The notes below the pieces were generated by a model, which had not been told where the DNA came from, did not search any database, and saw nothing but the letters and a program-made list of their open reading frames with translations. DNA of 64,000 bases from contig JAUCGL010000003.1 in NCBI GenBank assembly GCA_030378105.1, positions 1 through 64,000 of the forward strand, in the 5' to 3' direction. Shown piece by piece: positions 6,466 through 57,528 of this stretch. How positions within the stretch are numbered: position 1 is the stretch's first letter; each line of letters opens with the position of its first letter. Position numbers and translations under genes: made by a program. The stretch comes from Candidatus Halobeggiatoa sp. HSG11. GTDB lineage: Bacteria; Pseudomonadota; Gammaproteobacteria; Beggiatoales; Beggiatoaceae.

Positions 6466-7314
6466 ATGGCAAAAAATTTTCTTACTCCGGCAGAAACGGC
6501 TCAATCGTTTATTGTAATTGGCGATTATAAAACTAAAATGCCAGTTTCTAAAATATTGGTATCATCATTTTTAGCTGGAGCATATATTGCTTTTGCAGCT
6601 CAGTTGATGACTACAGTCACTCACGATATGGCTGGATATTTTGGAGTTGGCTTTAGCAGTTTTATTGGAGGTAGCGTATTCGGTATAGCTCTCGTACTTG
6701 TTCTGGTAGCTGGTTCCGACCTCTTTACAGGTAATACTTTACTTTCTATGGGATGGTTAAACAATAATTTAACTACCGGCCAAGTTTTGAATAACTGGTT
6801 TTTAGTATATGTTGGTAATTTTATTGGAGCATTATTTTTGCTTTGGATGATGTTTTCCAGCGATATTTGGTCAGGGCATGATGGTCAAATAGGAGCTCAT
6901 GCGGTAGCTATAGCGTATAAGAAGACGCATCTCACCTTTATGGAAGCATTTACAAGGGGAATTGGTTGTAACTGGTTAGTTTGTTTAGCTGTAGTTATTG
7001 TTGCTGCTGGACAAGATACTGTTGGTAAAATTCTTGGGGCATGGTTCCCAGTTATGGCGTTTATTGCCAGTGGTTTTGAGCATTGCGTGGCTAACATGTT
7101 TATTATTCCGGCTGGTTTGGTTGCTAAATTAGACCCTAAAGTCGCAGAAACTGTTATAGCTAATCATCCAACTTGGGATTTAAATTCTTTAAATTTCTAT
7201 TCATTTTTTGTAAATAATTTAGTTCCAGTTACTTTGGGTAATATATTTAGCGGAGCTGTATTAGTTGGTGGAATTTACTGGTACTTATATGTTAAAGATG
7301 CCAAAGCAAGCTAG
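6466..7314 (+). CDS. Formate/nitrite transporter (FNT family)
   Basis: 282 residues with six predicted membrane segments, the standard size of FocA/NirC pentameric anion channels. Family signatures are visible: AGAYIAFAA early on, AGSDLFTGNTL, GIGCNWLVCLAV and GFEHCVANMFIIP, the last holding the central-pore histidine. Members move formate, nitrite or hydrosulfide across the inner membrane. The next gene, on the opposite strand, encodes a multiheme cytochrome, which would suit nitrite or formate metabolism, but substrate cannot be fixed from sequence. An AAGGT ribosome binding site precedes the ATG, and a repeat-borne hairpin lies just downstream. Confidence 0.92.
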   Translation: MAKNFLTPAETAQSFIVIGDYKTKMPVSKILVSSFLAGAYIAFAAQLMTTVTHDMAGYFGVGFSSFIGGSVFGIALVLVLVAGSDLFTGNTLLSMGWLNNNLTTGQVLNNWFLVYVGNFIGALFLLWMMFSSDIWSGHDGQIGAHAVAIAYKKTHLTFMEAFTRGIGCNWLVCLAVVIVAAGQDTVGKILGAWFPVMAFIASGFEHCVANMFIIPAGLVAKLDPKVAETVIANHPTWDLNSLNFYSFFVNNLVPVTLGNIFSGAVLVGGIYWYLYVKDAKAS

Positions 7315-7320
7315 TGGGTA

Positions 7321-7407
7321 ATCCTAGATAAAGTAGTGATAACTCCAAAAACCTGCTAAGTATCAAGTACCTAGCAGGTTTAATACTACATGTTGTGAGT
7401 ACTATCC
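7321..7407. repeat. Dispersed repeat, copy 1 (with hairpin 7349-7381)
   Basis: This roughly 87-bp sequence recurs in direct orientation at 9986-10074, with around 80-85% identity by eye. It contains perfect 10-base arms AAACCTGCTA (7349-7358) and TAGCAGGTTT (7372-7381). Here the hairpin could end transcription of the FNT gene, although no T tract follows. The two copies bracket the cytochrome gene and its small partner. Confidence 0.7.
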
Positions 7408-7444: not shown

Positions 7445-7570
7445 TCAATGCAACAGCCAGTATCCAATCAGCAAGATAACTACCAACAGATTAATAAATC
7501 CACCCAAAATAACAAACATATCAAAGCCATTTAAACGTTGCCACCATTTTGCTTCAGTTGTATCAACCAT
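7445..7570 (-). CDS. 41-residue single-span membrane protein
   Basis: A short frame starts two bases after the stop of the cytochrome gene. It encodes a soluble N-terminus (MVDTTEAKWWQRLNGFD) followed by one hydrophobic helix (MFVILGGFINLLVVILLIGY) and ends WLLH. Its layout recalls the small accessory subunits of respiratory complexes (CydX- or CcoQ-like in form, not in sequence). The tight spacing suggests co-translation with the cytochrome, and a role in anchoring or stabilising that complex is a reasonable inference. The gene is shorter than usual annotation cut-offs. Confidence 0.6.
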   Translation of the reverse strand: MVDTTEAKWWQRLNGFDMFVILGGFINLLVVILLIGYWLLH

Positions 7571-7572
7571 AA

Positions 7573-9969
7573 TTATTTTCGCTCCGAACGTTGACCCCTA
7601 ACCACTATTATTCCTAGAAAAAAGGTTAAGAAACCAATCCCTAAGGGTAGCCCATACAATTTACCGTAATTAATTTCCGGCGGTAATACCAACCAATACC
7701 AACTAGTTAATGTATGTTTAGAACCAATTTCACCATTATTACCATCCCAATTGGCAAAAGAAATCGGTACAAACTGTCCATTAGTTAATATCACATCACC
7801 AACATCACCACCACCACCACCAGTTAAAGGCCGTTTCATCAAAATTTTCCACTGACCATTGAGCCATTTACCATTTGCTGTCAATGTCTTATCCTCTGAA
7901 CGTGGTTGAAGTTTTTTATCAGGCCCAGTTCCATCAAAAATCATAGATTTAGCAGCAATTTCTGGCTCAATACTACCAGCATTCCAATAATAAATTGTGG
8001 TTGGATGTTTGCTGTCACCGTGTCGATATAAAGGTTTTTCTACCATTGGTACTGTTGCAAATGCTCCTGCTTTAGGAACCTGAATTGCAAACGCATCTGA
8101 GTACATCTCCAAGTATTCATCATGAATCTGCGTAGCAACTGGTTCACCGGGCCGACTATCAGTTCTATCATCCACTTCTAACAGAAAAGCTATCTCTTGC
8201 TCATTATACAAAACTCGCACCGTAACAGTTTCATTTAATGGCGTAAATAATCGCTCGTCTTTGATAAGATTTGGAACTAAACGTAATGTAGTTGCTGTTG
8301 CATTATCCCAAGCTGGATTACTGGTATCAGTCGGCAAAGCTCCTGCAATCTTAAGTCCTTTAATAACTTCACCTTTTGAATCTTCTCGCAATGAATAAAC
8401 ATAATTAGCAATATGCCAACGATCTTCTAAACTCACTGGGTCTGTATCGCCACTAGTTGAACGATGAGCTGGCATAGGAGTACTGAAAATACCAATGGAC
8501 AGCCGTCGATAAATATTGCGGATGGTTTCTGTGCGACTCTCTTCATCAGTACCTTCAACATAACTGGCTCGCCAAGTCCATGGTTGGGTTAAATTACGTG
8601 GCCAAATTCTATTACCCCAGTCATCGGCCAATTGTTTACCAGAAGTTATGTTGCCTCGGCCAGTTTCACCATGACATTGAGTACAGGTTTTCTCAAAAGC
8701 TACCTTACCTTTCGCAATAGATTCCTCAGAATAAGCCACCTGTCCAGTTATTGGTTCTTCCTCAGTTATACGAATAAAATTATCCTTGAGATAATGCCCA
8801 TCATCATCAAAGTCTTCATCTTCATCAGCATCTTCTGGAGTCCAAGTGCCGGCAATATCAAAACGTTTGATAACCGGAATCAAAGCGGCTATTTGTTCAT
8901 CACTAAGTAGACTTGCCCAACCCGGCATTCCAGTACCTTGCAAGCCATGTTTGATAGTGCTTATTAAATCTTCATCACGAGCTGGCATTTCACCGGGAGA
9001 AGTCTTATATTTGAACGCTCCCAATGTAAAATCACGTGGTCTTGGATATAGAAAATCAGCCGCTGGTCCGTCACCAGCACCTTCTTCACCATGACAGATT
9101 GCACAACGAAACTGGTAAATTTCCGTTCCATCCATCTTGGTACGTTGAATTTGAATTTTGTCTTTCATGTTAGTCACTTGCTTGGAAATATCCGGGTCCC
9201 ACATACGTGGCACTTGTCCAACATAGTCATAGAGAAAAGTTATAATTTGCCATACTTCAGTTTCATTCAACATTTCATGCCAAACTGGCATTGCCGAATT
9301 CCAAGGTGTTCCTTCTTTTGGTAAGCCGGGACCACCAGTTGTGATACGCCAAAATAGGAAAGCTTCTTGTAACTGGGCAATAGTACCAACATCTTGAAAA
9401 TTAGCTGGAATAGGATTAAAACCAGTTGCAAACGGCCCATCGCCATCTAACAAATCACCATGACAATAAAAACAGTTTTTAAAATATGCTTCTTGGCCAG
9501 ATTGTACTGCTGTTTGATATAGTTCATCTGCTTGCTTGGTATCAGTTTGAGCTAATACTTCAGTCCGAATTGGATTTTCCAGAGTAGTTAAATTATAGGA
9601 TTTATTATAGACTTTAAGATTTGATGGTGGAGCTGGATGCACTTGCCGCAATTCCACTGGTGATTCAAGCGATGGTTTGAATATGTTGTAAGTTGTGTAG
9701 CCAACTAATACTGGAATTGATAGCAAAAAAAACCAGCGAATCAACCATTTGTTATCGTCTCGAACTACCGCCGCAATTGGGGCTTTAAATTCATTCCAAC
9801 GCCGTTCTTCAAACGAAAAATATAGCAACACTCCAATAATGGTGATGAGCATAAACTCAATCATTAATGATTTGGGTAATAATGGTGGAAAGGCATTGTC
9901 AAATATAAGGTAAGCTCCAACAATTACTAAAACTGCCTGCCAAAATGCTGTGATTTTTAATTTATTCAT
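7573..9969 (-). CDS. Membrane-anchored triheme cytochrome c with ethylbenzene-dehydrogenase-like heme domain
   Basis: 798 residues from the ATG at 9969; an upstream ATG at 10014 lies inside a dispersed repeat and is unlikely. Two or three membrane segments occupy residues 1-95. Three c-type heme sites follow: CFYCH (about 165), CAICH (about 288) and CTQCH (about 427). From about 540 (GALPTDTSNPAWDNA) the sequence resembles the heme-binding gamma-subunit domain of ethylbenzene dehydrogenase/DMSO-reductase-type enzymes, and a final membrane helix ends at the C-terminus. The hemes face the periplasm. It probably passes electrons between the quinone pool and a periplasmic oxidoreductase. No catalytic subunit is adjacent; the FNT channel nearby hints at nitrite or formate. 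Confidence 0.8.
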   Translation of the reverse strand: MNKLKITAFWQAVLVIVGAYLIFDNAFPPLLPKSLMIEFMLITIIGVLLYFSFEERRWNEFKAPIAAVVRDDNKWLIRWFFLLSIPVLVGYTTYNIFKPSLESPVELRQVHPAPPSNLKVYNKSYNLTTLENPIRTEVLAQTDTKQADELYQTAVQSGQEAYFKNCFYCHGDLLDGDGPFATGFNPIPANFQDVGTIAQLQEAFLFWRITTGGPGLPKEGTPWNSAMPVWHEMLNETEVWQIITFLYDYVGQVPRMWDPDISKQVTNMKDKIQIQRTKMDGTEIYQFRCAICHGEEGAGDGPAADFLYPRPRDFTLGAFKYKTSPGEMPARDEDLISTIKHGLQGTGMPGWASLLSDEQIAALIPVIKRFDIAGTWTPEDADEDEDFDDDGHYLKDNFIRITEEEPITGQVAYSEESIAKGKVAFEKTCTQCHGETGRGNITSGKQLADDWGNRIWPRNLTQPWTWRASYVEGTDEESRTETIRNIYRRLSIGIFSTPMPAHRSTSGDTDPVSLEDRWHIANYVYSLREDSKGEVIKGLKIAGALPTDTSNPAWDNATATTLRLVPNLIKDERLFTPLNETVTVRVLYNEQEIAFLLEVDDRTDSRPGEPVATQIHDEYLEMYSDAFAIQVPKAGAFATVPMVEKPLYRHGDSKHPTTIYYWNAGSIEPEIAAKSMIFDGTGPDKKLQPRSEDKTLTANGKWLNGQWKILMKRPLTGGGGGDVGDVILTNGQFVPISFANWDGNNGEIGSKHTLTSWYWLVLPPEINYGKLYGLPLGIGFLTFFLGIIVVRGQRSERK

Positions 9970-9985
9970 ATTTTGAAAATTTGAT

Positions 9986-10074
9986 AGTCCTAAATAAAGT
10001 AGTGATAGCTCCAAAAAAACTGCTAGGTCTCAAATACATAGAAGATTTAACACTACATATTGTGGAACTACTCC
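9986..10074. repeat. Dispersed repeat, copy 2
   Basis: Direct repeat of 7321-7407. The hairpin arms have decayed in this copy. It overlaps the most upstream possible start of the cytochrome gene, which argues for the downstream start at 9969. Confidence 0.7.
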
Positions 10075-56751: not shown

Positions 56752-57528
56752 CTACATATCATAAACTGCTACTTCTGGCAATCCAACTTGTTGCAGTAAT
56801 CTTGCTCGTAAATCATGTAACGAATTATCAGCTTTAATTCGTTCAGACAATACGTCTAAAGCATTATACCAAAAACCATGTTTAGCATATAAAGCTGCCA
56901 TATCATTATGTTCATTCACCTTTGATAACATAGGTGGAATATCAACACGCTTAATAGTACTGATTGCACTTACGTTCAAAGATGGGTTTTCAGGATCACA
57001 TATTAATGATATAGACCACTCATATTCAACATTTTTCTCTAAGTTTAAATTATAATTACTCAGAGGCAATGTATGTATACCAGCTTTAACAGATTCTAAA
57101 TGAAACGTATCTTTTAACAATGGAGTTTCAGAGAAAACTGTTAATTTATCTGGAGTTTTATCAATAATGAAAGTAAAATCAGCGTTTTCCAAAGATTCTG
57201 ATATTGACCAGTATAAAGTTGGTTGAGCATCAACAGTCTTTCCAGTACGTTTAGGTACTAACAAACGCAAAGCAAAGTCATTTTGAATATTCCAACAACC
57301 ACCTCTCATACCACGCATGCCTCTCATACCACGCATGCCTCTCATACCACGCATGCCTCTCATGCCACGCATGCCTCTCATACCACGTACACCTGATACT
57401 ACATTTCTGGTTATTTCGCCTTCTTCAGCAGGGTTATAAGTAATTTCTTCTACTTGTGCTTGAGAAATTGGACTAGAAATCGTCAGGAAAAAACCAGCTA
57501 CTAAACTAAAAGATTTGAGACTATTCAT
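56752..57528 (-). CDS. DUF928 family exported protein with RGM repeats
   Basis: 258 residues. A signal peptide (MNSLKSFSLVAGFFLTISS...QAQ) leads to an unusual tract of nine RGM triplets (about 47-75) in front of RGGCWNIQNDFALRLLVPK. The rest fits DUF928, best known from cyanobacteria: QPTLYWSISESL, GIHTLPLSNYNLNLEKNVEY and EWSISLICDPENPS. The function is unknown; members are secreted and have a beta-rich fold. The tract is coded by near-identical 18-bp units and should vary in length. Confidence 0.78.
   Translation of the reverse strand: MNSLKSFSLVAGFFLTISSPISQAQVEEITYNPAEEGEITRNVVSGVRGMRGMRGMRGMRGMRGMRGMRGMRGMRGGCWNIQNDFALRLLVPKRTGKTVDAQPTLYWSISESLENADFTFIIDKTPDKLTVFSETPLLKDTFHLESVKAGIHTLPLSNYNLNLEKNVEYEWSISLICDPENPSLNVSAISTIKRVDIPPMLSKVNEHNDMAALYAKHGFWYNALDVLSERIKADNSLHDLRARLLQQVGLPEVAVYDM
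57303..57388 (-). repeat. 18-bp tandem repeat coding for (RGM)n
   Basis: About four and a half copies of an 18-bp unit (coding strand AGAGGCATGCGTGGTATG) with only a few third-position changes. It is in frame within the DUF928 gene; changes of copy number add or remove pairs of RGM without a frameshift. Confidence 0.9.

Follow-up and report, generated by a model that had tools for sequence, protein, structure and literature searches.

A triheme membrane cytochrome with an EB_dh heme domain and a conserved 41-residue micro-protein, probable partners of a cytochrome bd-like subunit in Halobeggiatoa and its relatives

A two-gene unit on the minus strand of a 64,000-nucleotide stretch of Candidatus Halobeggiatoa sp. 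HSG11 DNA (hereafter the window) encodes a triheme c membrane protein with an EB_dh domain, which we call EB, and a 41-residue micro-protein. We consider it probable that both are components of a membrane complex by which electrons pass between the respiratory chain and a molybdoenzyme in the periplasm. Our observations are of gene content, synteny, co-occurrence, predicted folds and aligned ligand residues, and from these we infer the complex itself, which would consist of a 14-helix bd-like subunit, a diheme cytochrome c, EB and probably the micro-protein. The EB_dh domain would face the periplasm, with two histidines probably binding its heme b and three c hemes beside it, so that EB could relay electrons between the molybdoenzyme and the hemes that the bd-like subunit holds in the membrane.

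The EB frame (7573-9969, minus strand) starts with ATG and stays open over all 798 codons, and is a genuine gene. An AlphaFold model, built on an alignment of 57 sequences and with a mean pLDDT of 80.7, places three transmembrane helices at the N-terminus (residues 8-25, 33-52 and 72-97, together spanning 9679-9948, minus strand) and a fourth at the C-terminus (residues 768-797; 7579-7668, minus strand). Three cytochrome c stretches are matched by Pfam (PF13442, 2.3e-26), and residues 551-752 (7714-8319, minus strand) pass the cut-off for EB_dh, PF09459 (57.8 against 33.3 bits), a domain of which we found a single copy in the genome. The protein scores below the curated cut-off of TIGR03477, the DMSO reductase type II heme b subunit (64.5 against 169.85 bits). 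Structure comparison, which is informative for residues 279-529 and 536-764 and barely probes residues 1-278, shows that residues 536-764 share the fold of the ethylbenzene dehydrogenase (EBDH) gamma subunit EbdC (2ivf_C; Z 22.6, rmsd 2.3 over 198 residues) and of NXR-C (7b04_C; Z 20.6). Residues 279-529 resemble the diheme cytochrome Kustc0458 (6h5l_B; Z 23.9, rmsd 2.1 over 210 residues, 35% identity), although Kustc0458 belongs to a Kuenenia HAO-like protein complex and its solved chain has no EB_dh domain. The initial annotation had read this gene as a membrane anchor, three CxxCH sites and a gamma-subunit-like heme domain in one chain, and the helices at 8-97, the CxxCH sites and the match to 2ivf_C bear it out. 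Directly after the third helix lies a motif, E-x-R-x-x-HPAPP (containing H111), that is invariant in 57 of 57 EB proteins.

The heme c sites are at residues 166-170 (9460-9474), 289-293 (9091-9105) and 429-433 (8671-8685), all on the minus strand, and their likely distal ligands, judged from conservation, are M227, M348 and M499 respectively. All three CxxCH sites and these methionines, together with H650 (8020-8022, minus strand) and H752 (7714-7716, minus strand), are invariant in the 57 aligned EB homologues. The heme b ligands of NXR-C are given as Met155 and Lys305, 'as in EBDH', in the part of PMC8387239 that describes them. In a domain profile alignment with 7b04_C, with residue numbers counted along the alignment rows, H650 falls on Met155 and H752 on Lys305, and in a full-length profile alignment Lys201 of EbdC likewise falls on H752. 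The Met/Lys axial pair by which type II heme b subunits are recognised is thus replaced in EB by His/His at both positions. Since the two ligand positions align in this way, bis-histidine ligation of the EB heme b is likely. Unlike EbdC and NXR-C, EB joins this domain in one chain to three heme c domains and to membrane helices.

The micro-protein gene (7445-7570, minus strand) begins 2 nt past the EB stop codon, with GGAG 11 nt ahead of its ATG, and encodes a single helix in which N27 is invariant and D17, V30 and W38 are nearly so. A first plain search found it in six further genomes at E ≤ 6.5e-4, as short free-standing frames; ten weak matches of this search (E 0.0014-0.1) were set aside, seven lying in frames of 240-601 residues and three carrying an internal stop. 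A profile search then gave 52 ORFs at E ≤ 1.4e-11 with the next-best match at E = 1.5, values that are optimistic because the profile was iterated on the same loci. Pooled pN/pS over 12 pairs chosen for similarity was 0.21, with no difference between the two rates in two of the 12. The profile matches, the free-standing homologues, the class survey described below and the pN/pS value rule out a chance ORF. Among 42 members there was no accepted Pfam or NCBIfam match, weak matches being scattered over one or two members each, and no match to the Pfam models of CydX or CydZ at E 0.1. Among the titles and abstracts listed, none described it. This conserved family has no accepted model in Pfam or NCBIfam, and the initial annotation was right to call it real and unassigned.

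Free-standing homologues of the micro-protein occur in 7 of 57 related genomes, the window's included, and these are the same seven that encode full-length EB; G005 and G033, with a shorter EB that lacks the first helices, have none. Of the other six genomes, five have the two genes 3-13 kb apart on one contig, and G022 has them on separate contigs. Only in the window's genome does the micro-protein gene directly adjoin EB. The adjacency behind the suggested translational coupling therefore stands for this genome, but does not extend to the others, where the micro-protein gene sits beside a cupredoxin-like gene.

This wider arrangement was seen in a scan of named genomes, in which 80 loci, the best 80 of 113 relatives, were examined. 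They come from Thiomargarita, Venteria, Sedimenticola, Thiodiazotropha, tubeworm symbionts and some Alphaproteobacteria, and partly overlap the 57-genome set (contigs of G020, G021, G029 and G035). In L101, L086, L079, L091 and others one half of the cluster runs radical SAM, PCP_red stress protein, micro-protein, cupredoxin-like, HEAT; facing it, the other half runs CydA-like, diheme c, EB, SCO, two MauG/CCP-like genes, Rieske, AioA/Idr-like. The full set is present in L080, labelled Sedimenticola thiotaurini. Within the best 80 of 113, a CydA-like gene accompanies EB in 61 of the 63 loci having at least 2.7 kb upstream, a diheme c gene in 70 of the 72 having 0.9 kb upstream, and an Idr-like large subunit in 32 of the 46 with 9 kb downstream; the molybdoenzyme that the initial annotation had expected to cluster with homologues is thus found there. 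The micro-protein was seen in 46 of these best 80 loci; of the 54 that extend 7.9 kb or more upstream, 45 show it. It was not in view in the remaining nine of the 54 (L088, L099, L107, L109, L134, L136, L137, L139 and L152): L099 is a contig of G035, whose micro-protein lies beyond the flank, L134 has a short EB, and in the other seven the flanks were searched.

Some features of the accompanying genes may be recorded here. The cupredoxin-like family (P0009) shows by eye a C-D-x-H-D-F-M motif, and Pfam reports for it only a CarboxypepD_reg / fn3_3 / EMC7 sandwich. The radical SAM protein is NirJ2/AhbD-like, with a score under the cut-off. PCP_red, the protochlorophyllide reductase domain, occurs as four stretches in the stress protein (L101 638-2926) and as one in the radical SAM protein (L049 2145-3386), hinting at tetrapyrrole handling.

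Co-occurrence was surveyed in 369 Gammaproteobacteria drawn evenly, with two or three candidates scored per genome for the long queries. EB was found in 14, as one chain in nine, as two adjacent ORFs in four and as fragments in one (G098, where they lie on two contigs and count only towards EB in any form). The micro-protein was found in ten, namely all nine one-chain EB genomes and G127, in which the CydA-like gene is cut by the contig end and EB was not found; a match in G235 (E 7e-4), inside a 477-residue frame, is excluded. As to the co-occurrence that the initial annotation suggested checking, the micro-protein accompanies one-chain EB in 9 of 9 genomes, against 1 of the 360 without it (Fisher's test, related genomes treated as independent). 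CydA-like and Idr-like proteins were each found in 15 of the 369, the latter in 12 of 14 EB genomes against 3 of 355 others (Fisher's test, again treating related genomes as independent). The pairing of EB with IdrA-like is not obligatory, since each occurs without the other in some genomes. EB is missing from 3 of the 15 class-set genomes that have IdrA-like, and likewise from G002 and G004, two IdrA-like carriers in the genus of the window's organism; conversely, G049, G227 and G022 have EB but no IdrA-like. In the split form a monoheme ORF is followed by a diheme/EB_dh ORF, as read directly in G261, G159 and G227 and taken from the survey alone in G359; the survey did not find the micro-protein in these four genomes. 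G261 also carries a second CydA-like / monoheme / diheme set near an Idr-like gene (L161 5893-11642), without the HPAPP motif.

What the micro-protein does can be approached through these associations. The operons of bd oxidases encode the small subunits CydX, CydY or CydZ, according to the part of PMC4325964 that treats them. Like these, the micro-protein has about 40 residues, a single helix and a genetic tie to a CydA-family protein, but it has its own D, N, V, W conservation pattern and does not lie beside cydA. By analogy it is most simply read as a CydX-like small subunit, with a structural or assembly role such as CydX has in canonical bd oxidases, and a cupredoxin partner is a live alternative. 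The micro-protein might instead pair with the cupredoxin-like protein, or act in assembly, and merely travel with the cluster. In all 46 loci showing it among the best 80 of 113, it shares its strand with the cupredoxin-like gene, and their low coordinates are 113-964 bp apart. Against this, G005, G026 and G033 have the cupredoxin-like gene without the micro-protein, which tracks one-chain EB in 9 of 9 and 7 of 7 genomes (two overlapping sets), and in the window's genome it stands beside EB with the cupredoxin-like genes on other contigs. We regard the cupredoxin alternative as possible but doubtful, and retain the micro-protein as a candidate subunit of the bd-like complex.

In the Halobeggiatoa genome the cluster is spread over at least four contigs. 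EB and the micro-protein are on C257, and the CydA-like and diheme c genes on C282; P1, P2, Rieske and the Idr-like large subunit are on C5 (L070 6363-12041) in idr synteny with two CCP-like genes; and a cupredoxin-like gene is on C60, with a second copy (45%), interrupted by a stop, on C293. A direct repeat of about 80 bp flanks the two-gene unit, copy A just downstream (7319-7397, plus strand) and copy B just upstream (9985-10064, plus strand), the two being 84% identical, and C5 has two further copies next to its Idr-like genes (L070 15129-15230 and 15771-15863); this repeat may have helped to scatter the cluster. Elsewhere in the window, the protein encoded at 56752-57528 looks secreted and contains R-G-M triplets repeated in a row. 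A self-contained two-gene operon, as first proposed, can be dismissed, as the CydA-like and diheme c partners that accompany EB elsewhere (61 of 63 and 70 of 72 loci among the best 80 of 113) are here encoded on another contig. Nor does the neighbouring FNT gene (6466-7314, plus strand) give the nitrite or formate link once drawn from it, because it is convergent with the unit and FNT occurs in 0 of 80 homologous loci (the best 80 of 113). The one route to a nitrite link would be the cluster's likeness to those that accompany NXR in nitrite oxidisers.

The CydA-like protein of the window's genome (593 residues) is predicted to form 14 long helices after an N-terminal one, and past residue 56 the model has no loop much longer than 30 residues. 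Its best match is CydA 5doq_A (Z 21.5, rmsd 4.0 over 350 residues); ten bd oxidase CydA entries score Z 18.8-21.5, followed by alternative complex III chains from 14.4 downwards. In the relative P0003, PF01654 covers the N-terminal part only. A phmmer alignment places two histidines of the N-terminal part on CydA histidines. This fold and these histidines would also suit an enzyme of the bd superfamily that reduces O2 as a terminal oxidase fed by cytochrome c, or one that reduces NO. EB and the diheme protein would then do no more than deliver electrons to it, and the molybdoenzyme would stand apart as a donor or acceptor. An SCO-like gene is often the next after EB, which would fit such an oxidase. 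However, in the same alignment the position of the glutamate that we take, from its identity in E. coli, to belong to the canonical bd proton path is occupied by tyrosine, and in most loci the module is tied to a molybdoenzyme. In favour of the oxidase, the OR-N type CydA of nitrite oxidisers has been proposed to be a cytochrome c-oxidising O2 reductase, in the part of PMC10839748 that concerns it. We consider a terminal oxidase or NO-reducing enzyme unlikely, and favour the complex that exchanges electrons with a molybdoenzyme.

The identity of that molybdoenzyme was approached by sequence identity and synteny. The Idr-like large subunit is 50% identical to the large subunit of an Azonexus plasmid locus that carries two CCP genes, small subunit, large subunit, cytochrome c and moaA, and 27-30% identical to plasmid-borne arsenite oxidases among the matches listed. 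The relatives' Idr-like subunits, large and small alike, exceed the arsenite-oxidase cut-offs of TIGR02693 / TIGR02694 (P0008, 421.6 against 359.05 bits; P0007, 121 against 95.65 bits), and the NCBI names of the Azonexus genes are likewise arsenite oxidase. At the position that we take to be the arsenite-site glutamate (Glu203), all 14 large subunits compared, the window genome's included, have another residue (Ser in 12, Ala in one, Asp in one). The P1-P2-B-A order of the IdrABP1P2 cluster is matched on C5, and in relatives these genes are embedded in the large cluster with the bd-like complex. Within its treatment of gene neighbourhoods, PMC8692401 reports that arsenite-oxidase loci lack the CCP (P1P2) genes, that idr surroundings are poorly conserved, and that Sedimenticola thiotaurini and Vibrio count as Idr carriers. 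Among the titles and abstracts listed, none described idr genes beside a bd-like/EB set, and a text-term search of the Venteria and White Sea Beggiatoaceae papers gave no match. By identity and synteny, an IdrABP1P2-like (iodate-reductase-type) enzyme is the likely partner in this organism and most relatives. Because of this likely partner we infer that electrons would usually flow from quinol or cytochrome c through the complex to IdrAB, in this organism probably towards an oxyanion substrate.

In the opposite, oxidising direction, electrons from a periplasmic molybdoenzyme acting on nitrite, arsenite or another donor would enter the chain or, by reverse transport, quinone. This direction has been proposed for NXR-linked bd-like oxidases, and the closest described cluster is from nitrite oxidisers and anammox bacteria. 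It would also fit G049, where, as in L109, a type II-like molybdoenzyme lies near EB in place of the Idr-like one (TIGR03479, 236.6 bits, under the cut-off of 984.75), and G374 and G154 (L170 4980-11956; L171 354-7378), where a more divergent CydA-like gene lies near a protein of about 1177 residues whose start resembles, by eye, the G049 enzyme. The AioA/Idr-family molybdoenzyme with its P1P2 pair in most loci, and the replaced arsenite-site residue, speak against it, and we judge an oxidising direction improbable in comparison with flow towards IdrAB.

The closest described system, compared by its published description, is the bd-like oxidase / alt_NxrC cluster of Nitrospira, Nitrospina and Kuenenia. 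The relevant part of PMC3578206 gives the NXR-linked oxidase of Nitrospina 14 helices, with a CydA-like N-terminal part and three helices replacing the Q-loop, describes it as lacking the quinol-binding residues, and calls its function 'enigmatic'; that paper and PMC6606698, in the parts concerned, place with it an alternative NxrC, mono- and diheme cytochromes c and cupredoxin-like proteins. As far as these descriptions go, both systems have a 14-helix bd-like subunit without the quinol loop (here predicted), a diheme c, a monoheme c and a heme c/heme b membrane protein, a molybdoenzyme nearby and, putatively on our side, cupredoxin-like proteins. They differ in that here a single chain usually unites the monoheme part with the diheme/heme b part, an IdrAB-like enzyme rather than NXR is the neighbour in most cases, and the micro-protein, HEAT, stress-protein and radical SAM genes belong to the cluster. 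Judged from its ORF layout, which PMC3578206 and PMC6606698 also describe close to NXR in nitrite oxidisers, the split EB of G261, G159 and G227 is a bridge between the one-chain and NXR-associated arrangements.

More speculatively, there may be a general bd-superfamily platform, lacking the canonical quinol loop, that works with both Idr- and NXR-type molybdoenzymes by way of c hemes and a bis-His EB_dh heme b. It would depend on a single-helix subunit of its own, from a new family, and its special tetrapyrrole would be made or loaded by two proteins of the cluster, the radical SAM protein (NirJ2/AhbD-like) and the PCP_red stress protein. Taken as a whole, we would call this quite improbable.

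What is new here is a conserved micro-protein that seems not to have been described and a likely His/His version of a heme fold known until now as Met/Lys. For nitrite oxidisers and anammox bacteria the bd-like oxidase / alt_NxrC complex is still a puzzle, its function being called enigmatic in PMC3578206. The same parts, in sulfur oxidisers such as Sedimenticola and beside an Idr-type enzyme, would offer a setting for deletion tests, and the iodate-reduction genes reported for Sedimenticola gain a candidate electron route.
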